Positions 3,469 through 18,900 of a DNA stretch of 64,000 nucleotides are shown here, in pieces. Both the position numbers and the translations under genes were made by a program. This DNA comes from a virus: IMG/VR virus record IMGVR_UViG_3300044732_000293, positions 1 to 64,000 of that record, one strand, 5' to 3'. The notes under the pieces are model-generated. The model did no database searches. It was not told the origin of the DNA and worked only from the letters and a program-made list of their open reading frames with translations. Position 1 is the first letter of the stretch, and each line of letters begins with the position of its first letter.

Positions 3469-6400
3469 ATGAAATTTCTATCTGACATACTAGCTAAAGC
3501 TGGTCTGACAGTAGATGGTGTAGTTACACTTAACAATACTGCTACTGGTCAGACTCCTGATGCTAATGACAATTCTACTAAGTTAGCAACCACTGCGTGG
3601 GTTAGAACTTTCGTTCAACCTTATAGTCTACCTATTGCCTCAGCTAGTGTGCTTGGAGGAATTAAAGTAGGTGCAGGATTATCTATTAATCCTAGTACAG
3701 GTGTTTTATCAGCATCAGCAGCAGGAATTAGTACAAGAGATATTTGTACATTTATAGCAACTGCTGGTCAAACTACTTTTTCTTGTTCTTACACTGTAGA
3801 TCAAGTTGATGTTTTTTACAATGGTTCTAAACTAGGTGCTTCTGAATTTACAGCAAGTAATGGAACAACTGTAGTTTTAAACACAGCTTGTAAAGTTGGA
3901 GACTATCTAGAAATTGTTTCTTGGGTAGCTGGTGCAGGTTTATCTTCTAGTAGAACAATTACTATTAACGGGGTTACATACGATCTTACTGCAAATAGAT
4001 CTTGGTCTGCATTACCAGTTGGTGGTGTAGCTGGAGATATTTTAGCTAAAGTAGATGGTACTGATTATAATGCTACATGGATTCCTAATTATACAAGTCA
4101 GGTACAACATTATGTAAAACTTAGTGCTACAATGACTGCTGGTACAGCGGTTTATGTATCTGGTTCTACAGGAGGTTCAGGTACAAATATGATTGTATCC
4201 AAAGCATCCAATGCTTCAGAAGCAACTTCTTCTAAAACATTAGGTCTTCTTAAAACAGGTGGTGTTACAAATGATGAAGTGTTTGTTGTAACAGAAGGTT
4301 TACTTGCAGGTTTAGATACAAGTACAGCTAATGCTGGTGATCCAGTATGGTTAGGAACTAATGGAGGACTTATATTTGGTTTATTAAATAAACCTACAGC
4401 TCCAGCTCATTTAGTATTTATTGGTGTTGTTACACGTGTACAATCAAATAACGGTGAGATTTTTGTAAAAGTACAAAACGGTTTTGAGCTAGATGAGCTT
4501 CATAATTTATCTGTAGCTAGTCCATCTGATGGTGACATGATTAAATATGTAGCATCTACAGGTTTATGGACTAAGATTGCTGCATCAACTACTAATATTG
4601 TAGAAGGTACGAACCTTTATTATACTACTGCTAGAGCAAATACTGATTTTGATACAAGACTTGCTACTAAGTCTACTACTAACTTAGCTGAGGGCACTAA
4701 CTTATACTACACGGATACACGTGTAGGTACATATCTTACAAATAACTCTTACGCTACTCAAACTTATGTAAACACAGCAGTTTCTAATTTAGTAGATGCT
4801 GCTCCTGGTACATTAGATACATTAAATGAGTTAGCGGCTGCCCTTGGGGACGATCCTAACTTTGCTACTACAGTGGCAACAAGCATAGGTACAAAAGTTC
4901 CAAATACTAGAACGATAACTATTAACGGAACAGCATACGATTTATCTGCTGACCGTTCTTGGACTATAAACTCTATGGTATATCCTGGAGCAGGTATTGC
5001 GGTTTCTACAGGTTCTGCATGGGGTACAAGTATTACAAATAATTCTACAAATTGGAACACAGCTTATGGATGGGGTAACCATGCTTCTGCTGGTTATCTT
5101 ACAGGAATTACAAGTAGTCAAGTTACTACTGCATTAGGTTTTACACCTTATAATAATACAAATCCTTCTGGCTATATTAGTTCTTATACAGAGACTGATA
5201 CACTAGCAAGTGTTACTGCTAGAGGAGCTAGCACATCTACTAGAACGACATTTACTGAAGTAGGAGCAACAAGAGAAGGCTCTGATAGTGTTGCTGTAGG
5301 TCCTTGGTTTAGATGGACAAATGTTGCTGAAAGTAGACAAATGCTTACTCAGTTAAATGCAAGTTTTGGATTAACAACTTGGGCATATAACGGTTCTGCT
5401 TGGTTATCTGCAATGACATTAACACAAGGAGGTGTATTAAGTACATCAGCAAGTATTAATGCAGGAGATAGTATAACTTTACAGGGAGAATTATATTTTG
5501 GTAGTGCAAATTCAAATAGATATTTTAGATTAGTAAAATCAGGAACTGCAGAATCTGCAGGTGTTTTAAATTATCAATTTTATACTGGTTCAAGTTGGGT
5601 AACAAAATCTACATTAAACAATAGTGGTAATGTAACCTACGCAGGAACATTGACTACAAGTGGAACAATAACGAGTAATGGTGGGGCGGCTCATTCTATT
5701 GCAGCAACATCATCTCAAAGATATATTATACAAGCATTAAACACTTCAAATAGCATTAACTCTGTATATGGTTGGTGGTGGTTTCATAATACTAATGGTG
5801 ATATGGGATTCCATGCTGATGGAGTAGGAGACATATTAAATATTACAAGAGGAGGTGGAGCAACTATTAATGGTAATACTATTTTAACAGCAGGCAACTA
5901 TAGTTCTTATTCATTACCACTTAGTGGTGGTACTATGAGTGGTACACCTATATTTACTGCTGCTTGGAGCAATGCTAGTGGAGATTATACAGGAATAACA
6001 AATCCAGCTTATAAAGTTGATGTAACTTCTGGTTATTGGAGAGTTGTTTATAAAGGAGCCCATTCATCAGTTAGTGGTGTATATAATTTTGAAACTGGTA
6101 AGAATGTTTATTGGGGTGAGCCTACTGACACAGGAGATTATATATTTAGAGGTAGGACTATGAAATGGGCGGCTAGTAATGGATCAGAATATGTTCTTTT
6201 ACATGCTAACAACTATAATTCTTATTCTCCAACTTTAACGGGTGTTGGTGCATCTGGTACATGGAGTATTACTGCAACAGGTAACGTTGTATCAAGAGGT
6301 ACAAGTTGGAATGATGGAACAGTAATAGGAAACACTGTTGGAATGTTAGCATGGAAGAACTATGGTAACGGCCACGTTATTTTTGATGCTTCTCAAAGTA

Positions 6401-8064
6401 CTTCTCCTAGTGGAACTTCTGTAAATAATACAAATCCGCAAAATAACTGGACTGCTACATATCCTACATTAATGGGATGGAATGGGTCTGGTACATATGG
6501 TGTAAGAGTAGATTCAGCAAGAGTAGCTGATAGTTCTGGTTCAGCTAGCTCTGTTCCTTGGACAGGAGTGTCAGCAGGAAGAAGAACTAACTATGATCTT
6601 GAGTTTCAACCTGCCGTTAATAATTATGCAGGATTTGCTTTCTTTGGTACTAACAGTTCTAATGCAGGATATTTTCTTATAAGAGGTGGAGCAGATAATG
6701 ATGTTTATACTGAAAATGGAATTACTTTAGTAGCTGATCAAGGTTGGTTAACTTTAGCTCAAAGAACTACTGCTAGTAAGGGTGTTAGAATTATGACAGG
6801 TTCTAGCACTTCTGCTACAAGAATATCAATTACAGATTCTTATAGTACTTTTAGTAATAATATTAAATTTGCAGGGTCTACTAACAATGCTTACTTAGGT
6901 AGTAGTGATTGGGGTTTTAGAGTAACTAATGATAACGGATATATCCAATTTGGTCCTGCTAATAATTCTTGGTCTCATATATATTCAGATAAGTCTTTTT
7001 ACTTTAACCAAGAGTTATATGTAAATGGTCAACAAGTAATTCATTCAGGAAACATAGGTTCACAATCTGTAAGTAATGCAACTACTGTTGGTAGTGTAGG
7101 TATTGGAAATATTGTTAGAAAAGATACGACAGGTCAATATCTTAGAGCTTATTATCAATATGGTAGTTATTTAACTTCTGAAACTCCTCAGAATTTAGTA
7201 GATCAAGGTATACAAGGTGGAGGACTAAGAGTTGATTTTATGCACCCTAGTTATACAGGTAGTGGTGGTTGGAATCATGTTATAACATGGTCTGGTTATA
7301 ATGGTTATAATATGTATCAACTTGGAGGACATTATGACGGTGGTACTGGAACTGATCTTTGGGTAAGGTCTGAAGCAAATCATGGTCTAAGTTCTTGGAC
7401 ATCTTGGAGAAGACTATTAAATAGTTCAAATTATTCTTCCTATGCTTTACCTTTAAGTGGAGGTACTATGTCTGGACCTATAAGAAGAAGTGGTCATGCT
7501 TCTACTTTTTTTGAAGGTTCTTATAATAATGTTGGAGGAAACTCTGATAAAACTAATCCAATATATACTATTGGTAGTGCTTATAATCCATCAGATAGTT
7601 CATTAGGAAGTATGTATGGTATTGGTTATGCCCATCCTAATTTATGGGGATCTGGAAAAACTAATGGTTGGGGGATGTATGTTTGTAGTGCTGGTGTAAT
7701 AGATGTAACAATTGGTGGAGATGGTGGATCTACATCAATATGGGCTAAAACAGATATAGTAGCGTATTCAGATGCTAGAGTAAAAGAAAATGTAGAAGTA
7801 ATAGAAAATGCTTTAGAAAAAGTTCAGGCTATACGTGGTGTTACTTTTACCAGAAATGATGTAAAAGATAAAACAAAACGTAGTACAGGAGTAATAGCTC
7901 AGGAAGTATTAACTGTTTTACCAGAAGTGGTTAGTGGTACAGAAGAAGATATGTATTCTGTAGCTTATGGAAATATGGCAGGTTTATTCATTGAGGCTAT
8001 CAAAGAACTTAAAGCAGAGAACGATGCTTTAAAAGAAATATTAAAACGTAATAATATTATATAA
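3469..8064 (+). CDS. Long tail fibre with C-terminal S74 chaperone
   Basis: The 1531-residue product has a fibre N-terminus (GQTPDANDNSTKLATTAWVRTFV), a long Ser/Thr/Gly/Asn-rich shaft and fibre repeats (TNLYYTDTRVGTYL; APGTLDTLNELAAALGDDPN; WNTAYGWGNHASAGYL). Further on are tip-like repeats such as LPLSGGTMSG and WTSWRRLLNSSNY. The end is an intramolecular chaperone of the peptidase S74 family starting at Ser1434 (SDARVKEN) with the conserved GVIAQEVLTVLPEVV. In characterised S74 fibres the chaperone drives trimerisation and then cuts itself off before that Ser, which would leave a mature fibre of about 1433 residues. The stop overlaps the start of the next S74 fibre by one base. Confidence 0.92.
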   Translation: MKFLSDILAKAGLTVDGVVTLNNTATGQTPDANDNSTKLATTAWVRTFVQPYSLPIASASVLGGIKVGAGLSINPSTGVLSASAAGISTRDICTFIATAGQTTFSCSYTVDQVDVFYNGSKLGASEFTASNGTTVVLNTACKVGDYLEIVSWVAGAGLSSSRTITINGVTYDLTANRSWSALPVGGVAGDILAKVDGTDYNATWIPNYTSQVQHYVKLSATMTAGTAVYVSGSTGGSGTNMIVSKASNASEATSSKTLGLLKTGGVTNDEVFVVTEGLLAGLDTSTANAGDPVWLGTNGGLIFGLLNKPTAPAHLVFIGVVTRVQSNNGEIFVKVQNGFELDELHNLSVASPSDGDMIKYVASTGLWTKIAASTTNIVEGTNLYYTTARANTDFDTRLATKSTTNLAEGTNLYYTDTRVGTYLTNNSYATQTYVNTAVSNLVDAAPGTLDTLNELAAALGDDPNFATTVATSIGTKVPNTRTITINGTAYDLSADRSWTINSMVYPGAGIAVSTGSAWGTSITNNSTNWNTAYGWGNHASAGYLTGITSSQVTTALGFTPYNNTNPSGYISSYTETDTLASVTARGASTSTRTTFTEVGATREGSDSVAVGPWFRWTNVAESRQMLTQLNASFGLTTWAYNGSAWLSAMTLTQGGVLSTSASINAGDSITLQGELYFGSANSNRYFRLVKSGTAESAGVLNYQFYTGSSWVTKSTLNNSGNVTYAGTLTTSGTITSNGGAAHSIAATSSQRYIIQALNTSNSINSVYGWWWFHNTNGDMGFHADGVGDILNITRGGGATINGNTILTAGNYSSYSLPLSGGTMSGTPIFTAAWSNASGDYTGITNPAYKVDVTSGYWRVVYKGAHSSVSGVYNFETGKNVYWGEPTDTGDYIFRGRTMKWAASNGSEYVLLHANNYNSYSPTLTGVGASGTWSITATGNVVSRGTSWNDGTVIGNTVGMLAWKNYGNGHVIFDASQSTSPSGTSVNNTNPQNNWTATYPTLMGWNGSGTYGVRVDSARVADSSGSASSVPWTGVSAGRRTNYDLEFQPAVNNYAGFAFFGTNSSNAGYFLIRGGADNDVYTENGITLVADQGWLTLAQRTTASKGVRIMTGSSTSATRISITDSYSTFSNNIKFAGSTNNAYLGSSDWGFRVTNDNGYIQFGPANNSWSHIYSDKSFYFNQELYVNGQQVIHSGNIGSQSVSNATTVGSVGIGNIVRKDTTGQYLRAYYQYGSYLTSETPQNLVDQGIQGGGLRVDFMHPSYTGSGGWNHVITWSGYNGYNMYQLGGHYDGGTGTDLWVRSEANHGLSSWTSWRRLLNSSNYSSYALPLSGGTMSGPIRRSGHASTFFEGSYNNVGGNSDKTNPIYTIGSAYNPSDSSLGSMYGIGYAHPNLWGSGKTNGWGMYVCSAGVIDVTIGGDGGSTSIWAKTDIVAYSDARVKENVEVIENALEKVQAIRGVTFTRNDVKDKTKRSTGVIAQEVLTVLPEVVSGTEEDMYSVAYGNMAGLFIEAIKELKAENDALKEILKRNNII
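7768..8061 (+). other. S74 intramolecular chaperone domain (first copy)
   Basis: Codons for residues 1434-1531. The SDARVK start gives the predicted self-cleavage Ser, followed by the GVIAQEV core and a C-terminal helix (LFIEAIKELKAEND). Confidence 0.88.
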
Positions 8065-11295: not shown

Positions 11296-12330
11296 ATGGC
11301 AATAAGTTTTCCTTCTTCTCCATCAACAGGTGATCAGTTTCCAGCATCAAACGGAAGAGTTTATCTTTGGGATGGTACTTGGACTACTAAAGCAGATACT
11401 ACAACACCTAATCCTTTTGCAGCTAAGCCGTTTAAGTTTAGATCTATTTACACAAGAGGATATATGGCAGGAGGTTATAAAAATGCATCTCCATGGAAAA
11501 ATCTTAATAGAACTGTACATTCTACAGATATTACAACAAACCTTGGAGATCAGATAGATTATGGTGGTGCATATGTAGATGCGGGTCATAGTGATTATAA
11601 CATGTTTATATATGGTCTTGATGATGCTTTTTCTGGAGCTAGTACACATACATCTTCTATTAGTATGCTTACAGAAGTTAAAAGAACACATGACTCTAGT
11701 TGGAATACTAAAACTACAAGAGATGATGTTGGATGTATAATGAACTCAACATTGACAATGGCTTACATTACAGCCGGGGGATCAACAGCTACAGATAAAC
11801 ATAATTATGTTACAGAAGTAATGTATAATGCTGGATCTGCTCCAGCTGGTCCTACAGCTGGAGATACGTATGGTAACGTAGCAGCGTGGCAAGGAGAGTT
11901 TAAAGGTTGGATTTGGAAAACGGGTCAAGGTGGAAACTTTACGTTTGCTACTGAAACCTGGAGTTCTGGTGGTACGACTGTAGCTACAGATGGATGGGGT
12001 AAAGGATTATCTACTAAGCATGGACATGCTTATGTAAAAAATGGGGGTAACATTGTAACAGGTGCTTATAAGTTAAATGATACTTCTGGTGCTCAAATAA
12101 GAACTGACTTAAACTTTGATAACTCTGGAGAGGAAAATTATCAAACTGGACAAAACTGGGGATACTGTGTTGGTCATTATAACGGTGCTCAAAATAATAA
12201 TACCTATAAGGTACATTCAATAACAGATGTTTATACAGTACTAGGATCTGATTCTCAACCAAAAGGACATGACGGTGCGTCATCCGGAGGGTGTGCGTCA
12301 GCTAGTGCGTTAATTTTAGGAGGACTATAA
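11296..12330 (+). CDS. Propeller-like fibre/adhesin protein, copy A
   Basis: The product has 344 residues. It begins with a fibre-type segment (FPSSPSTGDQFPASNG, then VYLWDGTWTT), which is common at the start of phage tail proteins. The rest is Gly/Thr/Tyr-rich with repeated blades of the type GYMAGGYKNASPWKN, ITAGGSTATDKHNY and GKGLSTKHGHAY, suggesting a kelch-like beta-propeller. The C-terminus has a conserved GSDSQPKGHDGASSGG signature. The next gene is a full-length paralogue with the same beginning and end. The gene starts one base after the stop of the long fibre. A role as receptor-binding or decoration protein is inferred. The His- and Gly-rich C-terminal motif may bind metal. Confidence 0.75.
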   Translation: MAISFPSSPSTGDQFPASNGRVYLWDGTWTTKADTTTPNPFAAKPFKFRSIYTRGYMAGGYKNASPWKNLNRTVHSTDITTNLGDQIDYGGAYVDAGHSDYNMFIYGLDDAFSGASTHTSSISMLTEVKRTHDSSWNTKTTRDDVGCIMNSTLTMAYITAGGSTATDKHNYVTEVMYNAGSAPAGPTAGDTYGNVAAWQGEFKGWIWKTGQGGNFTFATETWSSGGTTVATDGWGKGLSTKHGHAYVKNGGNIVTGAYKLNDTSGAQIRTDLNFDNSGEENYQTGQNWGYCVGHYNGAQNNNTYKVHSITDVYTVLGSDSQPKGHDGASSGGCASASALILGGL

Positions 12331-12331
12331 T

Positions 12332-13369
12332 ATGGCATTTTCATTTCCATCATCACCAAGTACAGGAACGTTATTTACAGCTCCTAGTGGTGTTATGTAT
12401 GTTTGGGACGGAAGTTGGACAACAATGGGAGACACTCAAGCGTCTAACCCATTCAGTAATAGTTTTTTATATAGATCTATTTATACAAAAGGATACATGA
12501 ATGGTGGATATAAAAATAGTTCTCCTTGGAGGAATGTTAATAAAACTATTCATTCTACAGATATGACAACTAACTTAGGAGATAAGTTAGTTTATAATAG
12601 TAGTTACGTTGGTGGAGGATTTAGTGATTATAATAGTTATATTTATCCTAGTACAGGAGCTGTTGGTGGTGCTGGTACAATTGTAGAATCTATGAACATG
12701 GCTAATGAAACAATGTTTGCATTAGACTCAGCTAGATATTTAAAAACTACACGTAGTGACTGTGAAGCTTTAATGACACCTGCTTTAACAGCTGCATATA
12801 TAGTTGGTGGTGGTACTACTGCAGTTGACAGACATAACTTTACTACAGATATTATGTTTTCTGCAGGAACAGCTCCAGCATCTCCATTAAGTGGAGGTAC
12901 AGGTGGAGGTCTTGGTTCTTTATTTGGTAGATTTAAAGCTTGGATTTCTCAAGGTGCAGGATCATCATTTACTTGGGCTACAGAAACATGGGCTACAGGA
13001 GGAATGAGCTGGGCAACAGATGGTCAACCTAAAGGTTTATCTAGTAAACATGGTCATGGTTATGGTGGAGTAGGTAGTTATCCCGGTTCTTCTTATGTTT
13101 ATAAGTTTAGTGAAGCAACAGGTTCAAATCTTGCTACAGTTAATAGAGCTAAAAATAATGGTGAAGAAAACTGGCAGATAGGTCAAAACTGGGGATATAT
13201 GCTTGGGGCATATGATTCATCACCTCTTGGTCAGAATAATGATGCTGAAAGAATTAATTATTTAACTGATACATACACACAATTAGGTAGTGACACTCAA
13301 CCAAAAGGTCATGATGGGGCATCCTCAGGATCTTGTGCTACAGGTTCAGCAGCATTTGTTGGTTACTAA
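12332..13369 (+). CDS. Propeller-like fibre/adhesin protein, copy B
   Basis: The 345-residue product aligns over its whole length with the preceding protein. Both have the FPSSPSTG start, the WDG-x-WTT segment, GYM-x-GGYKN-x-SPW, STDMTTNLGDKL and the closing GSDTQPKGHDGASSGS motif. The middle has diverged, especially the Gly-rich stretch at residues 185-205. This is a tandem gene duplication, with one base between the two genes. Paralogous pairs of this kind often differ in ligand specificity, so the two may give two binding types or a heteromeric tip, which is inference. It is the last gene before the accessory island, and a Bacteroidota-type promoter candidate overlaps its 3' end. Confidence 0.75.
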   Translation: MAFSFPSSPSTGTLFTAPSGVMYVWDGSWTTMGDTQASNPFSNSFLYRSIYTKGYMNGGYKNSSPWRNVNKTIHSTDMTTNLGDKLVYNSSYVGGGFSDYNSYIYPSTGAVGGAGTIVESMNMANETMFALDSARYLKTTRSDCEALMTPALTAAYIVGGGTTAVDRHNFTTDIMFSAGTAPASPLSGGTGGGLGSLFGRFKAWISQGAGSSFTWATETWATGGMSWATDGQPKGLSSKHGHGYGGVGSYPGSSYVYKFSEATGSNLATVNRAKNNGEENWQIGQNWGYMLGAYDSSPLGQNNDAERINYLTDTYTQLGSDTQPKGHDGASSGSCATGSAAFVGY

Positions 13370-13389
13370 TTAATATATTTGTACATTTG
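13359..13389 (+). promoter_or_regulatory. Bacteroidota-type promoter candidate for the accessory island
   Basis: TTG (13359-13361), a 20-nt spacer and TACATTTG (13382-13389) fit the TTG-N19-21-TAnnTTTG pattern of Bacteroidota housekeeping promoters. An overlapping TATATTTG lies at 13374-13381. The first island gene starts 26 nt downstream. Unlike the fibre genes, which are spaced by a few bases, there is a 46-nt gap here, which supports a separate transcription start. Confidence 0.5.
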
Positions 13390-13415
13390 TAAAAATGTAT
13401 TTAAACTAATATAGA

Positions 13416-13958
13416 ATGAAATATTTTATTGTAAGATTTTATAAAGAAGTTCCTCAAATTACAGGAATGACTTCTATTGGTTGGCTTGACTCATATGGTA
13501 TTTTTTCTGCTACTGCTGAAGCAGAAGCTGAATTACTTACTTTAAATCTTAGTATGGAAGAACTTACTGAAGATGAAGCTTTAATTGGATCTAAATTTTA
13601 TAGTATTTCAAGAGAGTTTCGTAAAGCTTATTCTGCAGTAGAAGGACTAGAGCCAGATGAAGAAGGTGGTTCTAAAACTAAGGTTTATCATACAGACCAT
13701 ACTAAAGCCGTTACTCTTAGCTTAATGAAGAAGATTGCTAAGCGTAGAGTTGTAGATGAGTTTAATCGTAGAGAAAATCAAACTGGTAAAGAAAGTATTC
13801 TTACTTCTATTGATGCTGCTGCTACTATTTGGGACTTAAATATTCTTAGAGAAGATTTATTAGGTGTAGAAATGCCTTTATATCAAGCTCAAGAAATGGG
13901 ATTGCTTAATGAAAATGGTATACGTATTGTACCTGTTGATTATAGTAAAGGATTTTAA
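13416..13958 (+). CDS. Unknown protein, first gene of the accessory island
   Basis: I do not recognise this 180-residue product. It begins with a beta strand (MKYFIVRFYKEVP), continues with an acidic helical segment (residues 40-60) and has a basic helical part around residues 105-125 (MKKIAKRRVVDEFNRREN). It ends with mixed helix and strand. It has no Cys, signal peptide or membrane segment, so it is probably cytoplasmic or a virion component. It lies 26 nt downstream of a Bacteroidota-type promoter candidate and 21 nt before a gene for an exported outer-membrane protein. The composition is unlike the low-complexity fibres on its left. Confidence 0.65.
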   Translation: MKYFIVRFYKEVPQITGMTSIGWLDSYGIFSATAEAEAELLTLNLSMEELTEDEALIGSKFYSISREFRKAYSAVEGLEPDEEGGSKTKVYHTDHTKAVTLSLMKKIAKRRVVDEFNRRENQTGKESILTSIDAAATIWDLNILREDLLGVEMPLYQAQEMGLLNENGIRIVPVDYSKGF

Positions 13959-13979
13959 TTAATAACAAAAAACCAATTT

Positions 13980-14849
13980 ATGAGAAAAGTGAAGATGCTA
14001 CTAGCAGCTTTATTTGTTACTGTATTGTCATTTGGTCAATATAGTAACAGTGCAATTAGACAAGGAACTGAAGAAGCTCTTAAGTCTCAGGATACAACTA
14101 AAAATGAGTTACAAGCTATAGTTGTAATTGCAAAGAAGGTACCGTTGATGACTAAGGTGGGTCCTTACAATCAACCTCTTTGGACAACAATTAGAATGTT
14201 TCCATCTACTAGAGTTTATGTAATGAACCCTCCAGGTACTGCAATGTATGAGAAGTGGTTTGATGTTAGACAGAGAAGAAATGGTGCAGCTCAAATTAGA
14301 ATGAGAGATGAATTTACATTTGGTTTAGGTAAAAGACTTCAATTAGATCTTTATTCTCATACAGTGTATGATGGTTTAAATGGAGATAAGACTTTTAAAT
14401 GGAGAGGATTTTCTTGGGAGTTTAGATATGCTTTAGCTGACTGGGGTAAGATTTGGGGTAACCCAACTCTTTACTATGAGATGAAAATGTTAGATGGTCG
14501 TTGGGGCATTGAACCTAAATTATTACTAGGTGATAAGATTGGTAAAAAAGGAGTATGGGGATTTAATGCTATTTATGAAGGTAATTTAGCTAGCACTAAA
14601 GAAGAGCAGGAAAGAGAATATGCTTATACAGCATCTTATGCTAATATAATTAATAATGATTTGTCTCTTGGTGTATCACATATGTTTAGATATAATGACT
14701 ATGAGGGTGGTTCAGAAGAGTGGTATGTTGGTCCGTTAGTTCAATATCGTTTTAGTAACAAAGGTTATTTAAACATTGAGCATATGCCAGGTCTTAACCA
14801 AGATGCAAAACAATCAAGAACTTTAATTATTTTTGGCTGGAGATTTTAA
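13980..14849 (+). CDS. Exported outer-membrane beta-barrel protein, phage-encoded
   Basis: The product has 289 residues. Residues 1-20 are a clear signal peptide (MRKVKMLLAALFVTVLSFGQ) of flavobacterial style. Residues 43-53 (ELQAIVVIAKK) resemble the short conserved segment at the N-terminus of TonB-dependent receptors. The rest alternates aromatic and polar residues typical of transmembrane strands (for example LQLDLYSHTVYD and WGFNAIYEGNLA) and ends in FGWRF. A terminal aromatic residue is the usual signal for the BAM insertion machinery. It is far shorter than a TonB receptor (600-1000 residues), so a barrel of about 8-12 strands is likelier. Possible roles, all inferred, are masking of the receptor against superinfection or nutrient entry. 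A virion role seems unlikely because of the signal peptide. Confidence 0.75.
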   Translation: MRKVKMLLAALFVTVLSFGQYSNSAIRQGTEEALKSQDTTKNELQAIVVIAKKVPLMTKVGPYNQPLWTTIRMFPSTRVYVMNPPGTAMYEKWFDVRQRRNGAAQIRMRDEFTFGLGKRLQLDLYSHTVYDGLNGDKTFKWRGFSWEFRYALADWGKIWGNPTLYYEMKMLDGRWGIEPKLLLGDKIGKKGVWGFNAIYEGNLASTKEEQEREYAYTASYANIINNDLSLGVSHMFRYNDYEGGSEEWYVGPLVQYRFSNKGYLNIEHMPGLNQDAKQSRTLIIFGWRF

Positions 14850-14860
14850 ATAAAACAACA

Positions 14861-15574
14861 ATGGAAAAACAAGACGTTATAAAACTAGCAGAAAGTCATG
14901 GTGGATGGAGTATGAGTGATTTTCAAAGTAGATACTTTGTAGTTAATTCACAAGTAACTGATTATCGTAGAGTTAGACAAGCTTTACTAGAAATTGAAAC
15001 ACGTATTGCTGCTAAGAAACAAATTATCCGTGATACTAAAAGATCACAGGTTAAACTAAAGATTAAAGAAAAAGAGCTTGTAGCTCAATTAGATGATCTT
15101 GAAAAAGAACTTATTCTTTTAGACATAGATCAACTTCAGTATGATATTTCTGTATATGAAAAGAAGTTAAGAATTGTAGAAGAAGAGCTTGACGAGTTTG
15201 CAAAACTTGTTGTTGAGATTGTTCCTACTATAGAAGAGTTAGAGACATATAAAGAACATAATGATGAGCTTGAAAGAGAGTATTGGATTTCCCGTATGGC
15301 AAAACAAGCTAGTGTAGATATGATAACCACTGGAAGAATTGGTGCTGGTAATTTAGACTCAATTGCTATGATGGCATCACAAGATCAAGTTTTAACTATT
15401 GGTTCTGCTTTGTTAAACTCAAAGAAGCTTACTGCAGGTATTAATAAGATTGAACAAGCTCTTGATACTAATACCAGTCTTCTTGAAAGTAGTTTTTCTG
15501 GATTGTTTGAGAAGAGTGATTTTGTTAAACTGTTATCTGAAAAAAAGGAAAAAACGGATGGCCAAGATATTTAG
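14861..15574 (+). CDS. Coiled-coil protein of the accessory island
   Basis: The product has 237 residues. Residues 1-35 are a small N-terminal part (KLAESHGGWSMSDFQSRYFV). Residues 38-135 form a long, highly charged coiled coil rich in Glu, Lys and Leu, and the C-terminal third is shorter amphipathic helix. I know no family for it. It has no signal peptide or membrane segment. The gene overlaps the start of the iron-sulfur/methyltransferase gene by 17 nt, so the two are probably translated in a coupled way and may work together. A scaffold or tail-measure-like role cannot be excluded, but the length is short for the latter. It ends in TAG, one of only two such stops in the window. Confidence 0.65.
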   Translation: MEKQDVIKLAESHGGWSMSDFQSRYFVVNSQVTDYRRVRQALLEIETRIAAKKQIIRDTKRSQVKLKIKEKELVAQLDDLEKELILLDIDQLQYDISVYEKKLRIVEEELDEFAKLVVEIVPTIEELETYKEHNDELEREYWISRMAKQASVDMITTGRIGAGNLDSIAMMASQDQVLTIGSALLNSKKLTAGINKIEQALDTNTSLLESSFSGLFEKSDFVKLLSEKKEKTDGQDI

Positions 15575-17168
15575 TCTACCAATCAATCCTAAGTTATCTG
15601 AAAAACAGTTTATAGAGTTTGTAGAGTTTTGTGACAAGTATAAAGACTATATTTCAGATCTATACTTTACATGTAGAGTTCCTCCATTTACACAAGATGC
15701 TATGGGTGATCTTTTTACTTCTAAGGATGATCCTCAGTATATGATTGATGTAGCACTTTATATTCAAGAAAGAACAGGAATAACAGCTTCTGCTACTTTT
15801 AATAATATATCGGTTAGACCAACACAGGAAAATTTAGATCTTTGGATTGAATCTTTTAAACCTATATATACTAAAGGAGTTAGATTATGTACACTACCTT
15901 TTAATCATTGGTTGTTAACTGGTCAGATTCAAAAAGAGTTTCCAGAGTTAGAAGTTAGAGCTTCTATATTGATGGATACAAAGACAGCCACAGATGCTTA
16001 TAATGTAGTGACAAGTGGTTTTCATTCTGTATGTATTGATAGAGCTCTAATGAGAGATCAAGATACTATAAAGAAGATAGTTAAGATAAAACGTAAAAAA
16101 CCTTTTAAACTTGTATTATTAGCTAATGAAGGTTGTTTAGGTAAATGTCCAGTGATGTCTGAGCATTACCATTATAATAATACTAGAACAACTGATAGTC
16201 AGTATTTTAACAATCCTATTAGTAGAGTGTCATGTCCAATGTGGGATGTTACTAATAAAGCGGTTGTATTAAAAACTGCAGATATCCCAGCTTGGAAAGA
16301 AGACTGGGATGAGTTTCTTGATATGGGAGTAGATATCTTTAAGATGCATGGTAGAGAAAACGTTAAGAAGATATATGATTCCATGAATATTGTCAGAAAC
16401 TACGCAGAGAATAAGACTATGTTATATGACATAAATCTTAAGATTAGTGAAGACAATGCTGCTAAGTGGAGGAAGATTATTAAAACCTGTCAGTTTGAAT
16501 GTTGGAGTTGTAACTTCTGTGATAGAATAGCTGGTGGTGAGTTAGATAAAAAAGCAGTTAGTGTTGCAAATATTCTAGTTGATAGCGTTAACTCAGATTT
16601 TGAAACAACAGTTCCAGGATTATCTAGTCCTAGAATTGATAAGCTTTTAAATGAACTTGGTAAAATATCAACAGGCTATTTAGAAATTGGTTGTCTTGGT
16701 GGTAGAACTTTTTCTAGTACTATTGCTGGTAATAAGTTAAATGCGTATGCTGTAGATAACTGGAAAGAAGGAGTAGCTGCAGAGAATAACTCTATTGATA
16801 TAACTGTTACCAAAGAAGACTTTGTTAAGAATATTCTACCATATAAAGGAGAGAATAAAATCAAAGTGTTTAACTGTGACTATATTGATGTAGATAAAAC
16901 CAATATTAAAGATATAGATTTATTTCTATATGATGGAGATCACTCACATAATAGTACAAGACTTGCAGTAGAGTATTTTGCAGACACATTTGCAGAAGAA
17001 TGTATTTTAGTTTTTGATGATGCTAATTGGGAAGGTGTAGTAAGTGGTGCTCTTGCAGGTATAGAAAAAGCTGGTTTAACTATTCAGTATGAGAAAAAAC
17101 TATTGAATAGTATAGAGGATAAAGATATGTGGTGGAATGGATTGTATATAGTGGTTGTTAAAAAGTAA
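15558..17168 (+). CDS. Fusion of U32-like iron-sulfur barrel and class I methyltransferase
   Basis: I start at ATG 15558 (536 residues) and not at the in-frame ATG 108 nt upstream. The upstream extension lies wholly inside the previous gene, and an AAGGA sequence sits 8 nt before 15558. Residues 1-330 look like a TIM-barrel of the U32 type with Cys clusters that could hold an Fe-S cluster: C193 and C197 (NEGCLGKCP), C226 (SCPMW) and C311-C315-C318-C321 (C-x3-C-x2-C-x2-C). Residues 370-536 are a SAM-dependent methyltransferase: E376 and the Gly-rich motif I (EIGCLGG), acidic D459-G-D461-H and FDDANW, most like the Methyltransf_24/CmcI group. U32 enzymes modify RNA, ubiquinone or proteins; the substrate here is unknown. 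A radical-SAM-like fold is the alternative for the first half. Confidence 0.72.
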   Translation: MAKIFSLPINPKLSEKQFIEFVEFCDKYKDYISDLYFTCRVPPFTQDAMGDLFTSKDDPQYMIDVALYIQERTGITASATFNNISVRPTQENLDLWIESFKPIYTKGVRLCTLPFNHWLLTGQIQKEFPELEVRASILMDTKTATDAYNVVTSGFHSVCIDRALMRDQDTIKKIVKIKRKKPFKLVLLANEGCLGKCPVMSEHYHYNNTRTTDSQYFNNPISRVSCPMWDVTNKAVVLKTADIPAWKEDWDEFLDMGVDIFKMHGRENVKKIYDSMNIVRNYAENKTMLYDINLKISEDNAAKWRKIIKTCQFECWSCNFCDRIAGGELDKKAVSVANILVDSVNSDFETTVPGLSSPRIDKLLNELGKISTGYLEIGCLGGRTFSSTIAGNKLNAYAVDNWKEGVAAENNSIDITVTKEDFVKNILPYKGENKIKVFNCDYIDVDKTNIKDIDLFLYDGDHSHNSTRLAVEYFADTFAEECILVFDDANWEGVVSGALAGIEKAGLTIQYEKKLLNSIEDKDMWWNGLYIVVVKK

Positions 17169-17170
17169 TT

Positions 17171-18043
17171 ATGGAAGTATTAATTAAATTATTAGATGGT
17201 ATATGGTTTGTCCCTTTTGTGGCAGGTATTATGTTTTTAACTAATATAATTAATGCCAAGGGATACTTTGTACCGTTTTATAAGTTTTTGGAAAAGAAGA
17301 TAAAGTCTAAAAGATTACTGATTGCTTTAATTAGTGCAGTGTCTGGAGTACTTCCAGTTCCAGGTAGAGTTATAATTAGTGCAGGGGCACTTGATACGTT
17401 AGCACCAAATGATGATAGAAAAAAGAAGTATGGTATAATAAACTATCTATCTACTCATCATTATTATCTCTGGTCTCCATTGGAAGCTACGGTATTAATT
17501 CCACTTTCTGTATTAGGTATAAGTTACTTTTACTTATTATCTATAGTTGCTCCTTTGCTAATAACTATTATTGGGATTACACTATATTACATATTTTATG
17601 TTCTTAAAGAAGATGATATTGTAATAAGTAAAATAGAGCATAAAAAAGATAAGACTATAAAAAATATAAAGTGGGATGTGGTAATGCTGACAGCTTTGGT
17701 TATTATTCTAGGCAATGGAATAAAGATGTACTCAGATACTATTGTAAACTTTCTTATGTCTTTTAATAGTGGTGTGTTTTTTGCATCTATTATAGCTTTT
17801 ATAAGCAGTTTTGTTTTAGGATCTAGTAGTAAGTTTGCAGGAATAACTACATTGTTAGTTACAGTTTTTGGTCTGAATTACTTACCACTATTTTTTGCAT
17901 TAGGTTATTCTGGTTATTTAGTAAGTCCAATGCACAAATGTTTGGTAATTACAAAAAGTTACTTTAACTTAAGTATAGAGCTATATAAGATCCTACTTCT
18001 TATAGGGGCAGTTTTAGTTACAGTAGGATATTTGTTAGTATAA
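17171..18043 (+). CDS. Multi-pass membrane protein resembling DUF401 transporters
   Basis: The product has 290 residues with about eight or nine hydrophobic segments and no cleavable signal. Conserved-looking loops include GVLPVPGRVIISAGAL (near residues 57-72), an ST-HHYYLWSPLEA segment and, near the C-terminus, GSSSKFAGITTLL and GYLVSPMHKCLVITKSYF. These half-buried Pro/Gly/Ser motifs recall the DUF401 family of putative inner-membrane ion transporters. That placement comes from memory of the motifs and is not proven. The gene follows the iron-sulfur/methyltransferase gene by 2 nt and closes the island. It would act in the host inner membrane. Full-length transporter-like genes are rare in a phage late region, so it is probably an acquired host gene. 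Confidence 0.7.
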   Translation: MEVLIKLLDGIWFVPFVAGIMFLTNIINAKGYFVPFYKFLEKKIKSKRLLIALISAVSGVLPVPGRVIISAGALDTLAPNDDRKKKYGIINYLSTHHYYLWSPLEATVLIPLSVLGISYFYLLSIVAPLLITIIGITLYYIFYVLKEDDIVISKIEHKKDKTIKNIKWDVVMLTALVIILGNGIKMYSDTIVNFLMSFNSGVFFASIIAFISSFVLGSSSKFAGITTLLVTVFGLNYLPLFFALGYSGYLVSPMHKCLVITKSYFNLSIELYKILLLIGAVLVTVGYLLV

Positions 18044-18054
18044 AATTTTAATTA

Positions 18055-18900
18055 ATGCCATTACAATCATCAGGTGCTATAAGCATCAGTCAAATAAGAA
18101 CAGAACTAGGATCTAGTTCATATAGTCTTAGAACACTATCTGCGGCTGCTGGTAAATCTACACCAGATGCTATGAGTGAGTTTTATGGGTATAGTAATGT
18201 ATCATGGCCTAGTGGTATGACAGCTAGATATGATGTTGCTAACTATACAGGTAGTACAATACCTGACTCAACAGGCAATGGATATACTATGTCAGTATCA
18301 GGAGTAACTTATGTTTCAAACGGTGGTAATCCGTATATACAAACAGCTATTGGTTCTTCTAATCAATCTATTACTGGTAACTCTTCTTTATATGGATCTG
18401 ATTTTACTTGGTGTACAGCATTAGCTATAACAGGATCAAACGGTGACTGGGGTAGTTTCTGGTGGTCAGAAGCTGGATCTAAAAACTTTTTATCTGCTCA
18501 CTATGCTCCAAACTGGAACCAAACAAGTTCATGGTTTCCAAGATTTGACACAGCAAGTGCGTCATACGTTCCTTGGAACAGTGGTATGGGTACAACTAAC
18601 AACGGTACTAGTCCAGTTAGTGCATCTGCAGATTATATATCAACAAGTCCTATGCATTTGTTAACTATTAGAAAAAGTGGTAATACTCTTACATGGTGGG
18701 ATAACACTACTTGTATTTGGACTTTTACAGGGTTTAGTACATTTAGTATTGGTGCACCTAATCAGGAGGTAGGATTTTTAAACAGAAATGGCGGTGGTTA
18801 TGTAACTCCAGCTAAATGGAGATTTATGGGAATGTTTAATAGAGCATTATCTGATGCTGAAATCGGTACTGTACAAACTTTAATGACATCTTATTCTTAA
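18055..18900 (+). CDS. Fibre protein with lectin-like (LamG/concanavalin) domain
   Basis: The product has 281 residues. Residues 1-48 match a phage virion attachment segment (SSGAISISQIRTELG, then LSAAAGKS-PDAMSEFYGYS) found at the N-termini of many marine phage tail proteins. Residues 55-281 look like a concanavalin-A-like jelly-roll. They have a start typical of LamG domains (MTARYDVANYTG-x-x-IPDSTGNGYTM) and the closing signature FNRALSDAEIGTVQTLM. Such domains bind glycans, so this is probably a receptor-binding tip. The fibre cassette resumes here after the accessory island, 11 nt from the last island gene. The attribution of the C-terminal domain rests on the motif and overall length. 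Confidence 0.8.
   Translation: MPLQSSGAISISQIRTELGSSSYSLRTLSAAAGKSTPDAMSEFYGYSNVSWPSGMTARYDVANYTGSTIPDSTGNGYTMSVSGVTYVSNGGNPYIQTAIGSSNQSITGNSSLYGSDFTWCTALAITGSNGDWGSFWWSEAGSKNFLSAHYAPNWNQTSSWFPRFDTASASYVPWNSGMGTTNNGTSPVSASADYISTSPMHLLTIRKSGNTLTWWDNTTCIWTFTGFSTFSIGAPNQEVGFLNRNGGGYVTPAKWRFMGMFNRALSDAEIGTVQTLMTSYS

Follow-up and report, generated by a model that had tools for sequence, protein, structure and literature searches.

A tail fibre or adhesin of family phrog_1417, a small protein (g1, phrog_1604 family), a coiled-coil protein (CC, phrog_1409) and a tailoring enzyme form a conserved unit in cyanophages and in other, apparently unrelated tailed phages, and this unit is present at positions 11,296-17,168 of the viral DNA analysed here (the window; IMG/VR record IMGVR_UViG_3300044732_000293, 64,000 nucleotides). 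The enzyme slot of the unit is variable, being taken by a U32-fold protein with an O-methyltransferase, a flavin halogenase, 2OG-Fe(II) oxygenases or a radical SAM protein, and the whole fibre, g1, CC and enzyme unit is sometimes duplicated. Judging from the sequences, we conclude that the module, with corrected boundaries, is real and conserved and that it probably functions in fibre finishing. That the five genes at 13,416-18,043 represent the distal part of a module which makes and chemically finishes the phrog_1417 adhesin has, in our estimation, about an even chance. The features of the locus are summarized in Table 1.

Table 1. Features of the fibre module and its surroundings in the window
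Feature	Position	Strand	Evidence or remark
Putative fibre/adhesin, phrog_1417 copy 1	11296..12330	+	phrog_1417, E = 3.9e-88; T4-GC 351-like in cyanophages
Putative fibre/adhesin, phrog_1417 copy 2	12332..13369	+	phrog_1417, E = 3.4e-61
Candidate Bacteroidota-type promoter, TTTG-N23-TANNTTTG	13355..13389	+	before g1
g1, 180 aa, phrog_1604 family	13416..13958	+	phrog_1604, E = 4.4e-14
OMB (outer-membrane barrel), 289 aa	13980..14849	+	AF2 model, Foldseek
CC, 237 aa, phrog_1409 coiled-coil protein	14861..15574	+	phrog_1409, E = 1.6e-57
U32-MT enzyme, ATG 15558	15558..17168	+	phrog_1458, E = 4.5e-133; PF13578
DUF401 inner-membrane permease-like protein, 290 aa	17171..18043	+	PF04165, TIGR00529, phrog_14035
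Next fibre-like gene	18055..18900	+	starts 11 nt past DUF401

An earlier note on this DNA had described the five genes from g1 to DUF401 as a tightly spaced accessory island inside the tail-fibre cassette. The five reading frames and the gaps between them (21, 11, -17 and 2 nucleotides, with the enzyme starting at its ATG) were confirmed exactly, and the 46 nucleotides before g1 are the widest gap nearby, but the boundaries had to be redrawn. Since a fibre gene follows DUF401 so closely, the block has no right-hand boundary, and because the families of g1 and CC are fixed partners of phrog_1417, the conserved unit takes in the fibre genes and begins with them upstream of g1. A self-contained, unique five-gene island was therefore ruled out, as the unit covers the upstream fibres and is widespread. 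The proposed comparison of GC content and codon use with the flanks showed no difference that would mark out the island (its GC is 0.29-0.34, that of the flanks 0.31-0.38), and a foreign composition was ruled out except for DUF401, whose GC content (0.293) and codon fit are the lowest. The promoter motif noted before g1 is present and showed no clear conservation in two relatives (L010 and L011); since promoter-like matches in the window do not clearly exceed chance (5, against 3.55 expected from shuffled sequences), it was dropped as evidence for the island.

In L010, which is closely related to the window phage, an unrelated gene for a 239-residue protein with a cysteine-rich start and hydrophobic segments lies between phrog_1417 and g1 (positions 6014-6733). 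Searches of the window for Crassvirales hallmark genes (those for the major capsid protein, the portal and RNA polymerase) gave no match and so did not confirm membership of this order; giant proteins and separate gene blocks on opposite strands were seen, and a protein of 1821 residues had a single, weak match, to Dulem virus 41.

To map the locus in other phages, viral contigs were searched with the enzyme, DUF401 and the barrel, which gave 131 loci on 129 distinct contigs, and gene maps were drawn from profiles built on them. This sampling is biased to loci bearing the enzyme or the barrel, and the linkage of fibre, g1 and CC was not selected for. The recurring order begins with one or more phrog_1417 fibres; g1 and CC come next, in either order, ahead of the tailoring enzymes, and in many lineages these are followed by a barrel and DUF401. 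The g1 and CC genes are adjacent in 112 of 113 loci, a phrog_1417 fibre lies directly upstream of them in 109 of 110, and the gene immediately downstream encodes a tailoring enzyme in 103 of 116; in the other 13, that place is taken by one unassigned small ORF of 86-95 residues. The window has the order phrog_1417, g1, CC and phrog_1458 enzyme, with OMB intervening between g1 and CC. When we looked for the block in relatives, as the earlier note had suggested, one locus (L013) was found to have exactly the same five-gene order at 73-88% identity, and the joining of the enzyme with outer- and inner-membrane proteins in a conserved block was likewise upheld. Occurrence of the genes at unrelated positions, which would have spoken against a block, was not seen for g1, CC and the enzyme, but it was seen in part for OMB (L135) and DUF401 (cyanophage S-CAM4). 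Among 50,697 phage records, the fibre, CC and U32-MT were each found in 123, all from cyanophages and with an identical breakdown by organism name; the module genes are mostly annotated there as hypothetical or as 'sericin 1 precursor-like'. The statement that no such system had been described holds for the literature searched, in which we found none, but the supposed uniqueness does not, since the core of fibre, CC and enzyme is present in these 123 records.

Besides the fused U32-MT, the enzyme slot is seen with U32 and methyltransferase as separate genes accompanied by a radical SAM protein, with a flavin halogenase of the PF04820 family, and with 2OG-Fe(II) oxygenases (PF13759/PF13640) in tandem arrays of up to 6-7 copies. 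In three loci (L105, L106 and L134; PF04820 at E = 2e-109 in the last), the halogenase replaces the radical SAM, U32 and methyltransferase genes of other lineages among the same neighbours. In two others (L073 and L075), the module is present as a tandem duplicate with a separate g1, CC and diverged enzyme for each fibre, and the copies are 28-54% identical (fibre 44-45%, CC 37-38%, U32-MT 54%). Forty loci are of the type phrog_1417, g1, CC, U32-MT and 2OG oxygenase, without DUF401 or a barrel. In the window phage no halogenase was found, and this block contains no 2OG oxygenase. Similar enzyme clusters follow other fibre genes in cyanophages that do not have phrog_1417 and CC (syn9, Syn10, S-RIM44 and S-SM1), and that of S-SM1 holds a 'leprecan' gene (a prolyl-hydroxylase-type annotation). 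Syn10, the source of VirX1, has two halogenase genes in such a fibre-adjacent cluster, so that the natural substrate of VirX1 becomes testable. A constant position of halogenases beside fibres was ruled out, because S-B64, S-MbCM6 and P-SSM2 have them at a distance from fibre genes. Ferrochelatase-annotated genes were seen more than once within clusters of 2OG oxygenases next to fibres (L149, from S-SM1, and L143, from Sf-CH11).

The enzyme of the window consists of a U32-fold, TIM-barrel-like domain fused to a class I O-methyltransferase-like domain (Methyltransf_24). When its AF2 model (mean pLDDT 86.8) was searched with Foldseek, the top match of the N-terminal part was the U32 peptidase Mk0906 (5d88; E = 3.6e-7, prob 1.00, TMt 0.68), and the C-terminal part matched O-methyltransferases; the PF13578 profile scored 32.7 bits (E = 1.5e-7) against a curated cut-off of 26.3. 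There was no Pfam U32 match, and a profile search against the PDB gave no match. Because a profile alignment to UbiU, UbiV and TrhP from E. coli was also not significant (hhalign, prob 1.8%), membership of the U32 family at the sequence level was left unsupported, and the kinship is indicated by the fold. Seven cysteines (Cys193, 197, 226, 311, 315, 318 and 321) are all invariant in 33 distant members. The methyltransferase part of the iron-sulfur/methyltransferase fusion proposed earlier was thus borne out by PF13578, while iron-sulfur binding is plausible from the fold and the invariant cysteines.

The profile of the second phrog_1417 copy weakly matched a designed kelch propeller (8pjx, E = 0.026) and KLHDC10 (E = 0.046) in the PDB, suggesting a kelch-like beta-propeller. 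The g1 product is a putative fibre-assembly accessory protein, and its longer relatives, as read from an alignment, appear similar to C-terminal parts of tail-fibre assembly proteins. For CC, the profile search against the PDB gave no match. In one relative (L027, 17178-17609), a second, shorter phrog_1409-like gene is located after a different large fibre gene, which suggests that proteins of the CC family work with several kinds of fibre.

The earlier reading of the second gene as an exported barrel was supported. OMB has a signal-peptide-like start (MRKVKMLLAALFVTVLSFG) and a C-terminal WRF, and its AlphaFold2 model (mean pLDDT 73.7) is a barrel of 12 strands, for which the best solved Foldseek matches were the channels FapF (E = 3e-10, TM about 0.6), COG4313 and NanC. 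The PF13557 profile (Phenol_MetA_deg) gave 16.5 bits, below the curated cut-off of 22, no PHROG was assigned, and a profile search against the PDB gave chance-level matches only. OMB is both the most conserved and the most movable gene of the set; its identity across phages is 53-91%, its dN/dS is about 0.04-0.08 in comparisons with L093, L013 and L102, and in relatives it is found between g1 and CC, before DUF401 or after DUF401. Between the window and L093, the protein identity of 91% with dS of 1.26 and dN of 0.05 indicates strong constraint, whereas CC is about 30% and DUF401 38-48% identical, which points to separate exchange. OMB is also present in a virus (L135) without a phrog_1417, CC or DUF401 match, although this record may be incomplete, so OMB need not serve the fibre. 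Copies outside the fibre module, 64-69% identical, were seen at about 8001-8849 in L135, 4965-5813 in L136 and 7968-8816 in L137; by reading, an acyl-CoA thioesterase-like gene lies close upstream in L135 and L137. When OMB was considered as a common host gene, a pattern scan of a genome collection, which was too insensitive to exclude others, gave a single distant homologue (36%) in Verrucomicrobia and so pointed to no host. This chromosomal gene (L144, 7893-8801) adjoins a two-component regulator on the opposite strand and possibly marks the cellular origin of the OMB family.

The last gene, described previously as a transporter-like membrane protein, indeed matched the DUF401 profile (PF04165, E = 4.8e-10, 39.8 bits against a curated cut-off of 24; also TIGR00529). 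The protein is of a short form in the window, L010 and L013 (289-290 residues, against 334-359 in other phage homologues), without roughly 45-70 internal residues that probably correspond to two membrane helices. DUF401 adjoins an exported barrel in many lineages. The barrel is of the OMB family in most of them, and barrels unrelated to OMB flank DUF401 in L015, L019, L022 and L091; in the window OMB is located three genes before it, and cyanophages with DUF401 have no adjacent barrel. Among the DUF401 loci, 56 of 59 have phrog_1417, g1 or CC, and all nine DUF401-bearing phage records have the fibre module, with a distance of about 56 kb between the two in S-CAM4. Since DUF401 occurs without a barrel in cyanophages and OMB occurs alone in L135, we regard the two as a pair that can in part be separated; our leading guess is that they mask the receptor or exclude superinfecting phages, and the alternative is transport. 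In L102-L133, a glycosyltransferase-like gene was noticed by eye on the minus strand 3' of DUF401, beside the module (e.g. L102, 10405-12593), and some large relatives among them also have a UDP-galactopyranose-mutase-like gene there.

From the gene neighbourhood and the folds, the substrate of the enzyme would be the phrog_1417 adhesin, presented by g1 and CC during assembly. The U32 domain may hydroxylate a residue and the fused methyltransferase may then methylate the new hydroxyl, with methoxylation as the net result; we propose this sequence of hydroxylation and O-methylation because of the analogy with the characterised operon of U32 proteins and TrmR. The halogenases or 2OG oxygenases of relatives would introduce comparable polar changes, tuning receptor binding or stability. 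OMB and DUF401, for which the proposal is weaker, may be produced late and work in the envelope of the host, where the likeliest effect would be to hide or change the receptor and thereby keep progeny or sister phages from re-adsorbing. In a more general form, to which we give somewhat less than an even chance, many aquatic tailed phages would have a dedicated and exchangeable set of tailoring enzymes (U32-O-methyltransferase, flavin halogenase, 2OG-Fe(II) oxygenases and radical SAM) that diversify the adhesin chemically, through hydroxylation, methoxylation or halogenation of the phage's own receptor-binding fibre, and the 'auxiliary metabolic' halogenases and oxygenases of cyanophages would be misread fibre modifiers. 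The module connects abundant but unexplained phage enzymes with a single physical partner, one specific tail fibre, so that the substrates of several families, such as the VirX1-type halogenases and the cyanophage 2OG-Fe(II) oxygenases, become testable; if the enzymes act on the adhesin, they would provide a chemical route to altered receptor binding beyond sequence variation.

The duplication of the module with its own enzymes and the exchange with a halogenase favour a fibre-linked substrate over a tRNA or a metabolite. Among systems in which a U32 protein works with a catechol-type O-methyltransferase, the synthesis of mo5U34 in B. subtilis (PMC6599085) was the only close precedent that we found, and the methyltransferase fold of U32-MT does match O-methyltransferases, so that U32-MT could be a tRNA wobble modification enzyme (of the ho5U/mo5U type, as TrhP with TrmR) which came to be in a fibre operon by chance. 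We consider this improbable, because the module is duplicated together with its fibre and each copy has an enzyme of its own, a halogenase substitutes in the same slot, and the linkage is to fibre genes and not to tRNAs, no tRNA gene having been found in the window. The earlier note had favoured a host-envelope or metabolite-modification system. In its metabolite form, the enzymes would tailor a small molecule of the host or phage, for which the barrel and DUF401 would provide an import or export route across both membranes. Halogenases, 2OG oxygenases, methyltransferases and radical SAM proteins are indeed families of natural-product tailoring, OMB resembles channels (FapF, COG4313 and NanC), and several lineages have the permease-like DUF401 flanked by exported barrels that are not related in sequence. 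This reading is nevertheless unlikely as well, since it leaves the fixed partners, the fibre, g1 and CC, unexplained, the enzymes are present in many loci without DUF401 or a barrel (such as the 40 loci mentioned above), and there is no scaffold-making enzyme or precursor gene. As the enzymes follow the fibre and share its duplication, and as a scaffold-making enzyme is absent, an envelope or metabolite target of the enzyme is less likely than the fibre, and we retain the envelope idea only for the barrel and DUF401.

For these two genes, a further explanation is that they are independent cargo, serving in superinfection exclusion or host takeover, which gathers at a fibre locus prone to recombination, and that their presence there reflects tolerance of insertion and not a joint function with the fibre enzymes; this is possible, though we hold it to be somewhat doubtful. 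The varying position of OMB, its occurrence without the module in L135 and its high identity to L093 beside the low values of CC and DUF401 are all as expected for cargo, but the constant company of DUF401 with module genes in nearly all loci and in every phage record argues against it. The cargo explanation is compatible with fibre modification by the other genes.

The closest known counterpart of the module is the T4-GC 351-354 block of marine T4-like cyanophages (Kyanoviridae; for example Syn33, S-H25, metaG-MbCM1 and P-HM2), which shares phrog_1417, phrog_1604-like, phrog_1409 and phrog_1458 genes in the same order, with 25-41% identity to the window proteins. In S-H25 and metaG-MbCM1, DUF401 is located close behind the block, as in the window; in contrast to the window, the cyanophage block is followed by a 2OG oxygenase or a denV-annotated gene and has no outer-membrane barrel. 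Flavin-dependent halogenases (VirX1 from Syn10; prnA) and 2OG-Fe(II) oxygenases of cyanophages belong to families found in or near the same slot behind fibre genes, and the window phage has U32-MT in this slot. The cyanophage 2OG oxygenases and halogenases have been given roles in nitrogen metabolism, in the repair of DNA or in protection from antibiotics (PMC3037559, PMC2984593), and they have also been counted among auxiliary metabolic genes (PMC10452541). In the literature searched, with most subscription journals outside its scope, we found no hydroxylation or other modification of fibres by phage enzymes. Glycosylation of virion proteins by phage-encoded enzymes is known from mycobacteriophages, and glycosylation of the capsid has been suggested (PMC11256854); the idea of a phage enzyme acting on the phage's own structural protein is the same, whereas the fibre module would employ other chemistry and have a fibre as its dedicated partner.

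The U32 proteins characterised so far function in hydroxylation, and TrhP requires prephenate; in B. subtilis, the U32 pair YrrN/YrrO and the O-methyltransferase YrrM/TrmR are encoded in one operon and convert U34 to mo5U34 (PMC6599085). As a group, the U32 enzymes TrhP, RlhA and UbiU-UbiV and the YrrN-YrrO-TrmR operon have in common with U32-MT the combination of a U32 fold and a catechol-type O-methyltransferase, and they set a precedent for O-methylation after hydroxylation. The phage enzyme differs from this group in being a single fused protein with a CxxxCxxCxxC tail and another cysteine spacing, which is unlike that of the essential residues of TrhP, and it is linked to fibre genes and not to RNA genes.
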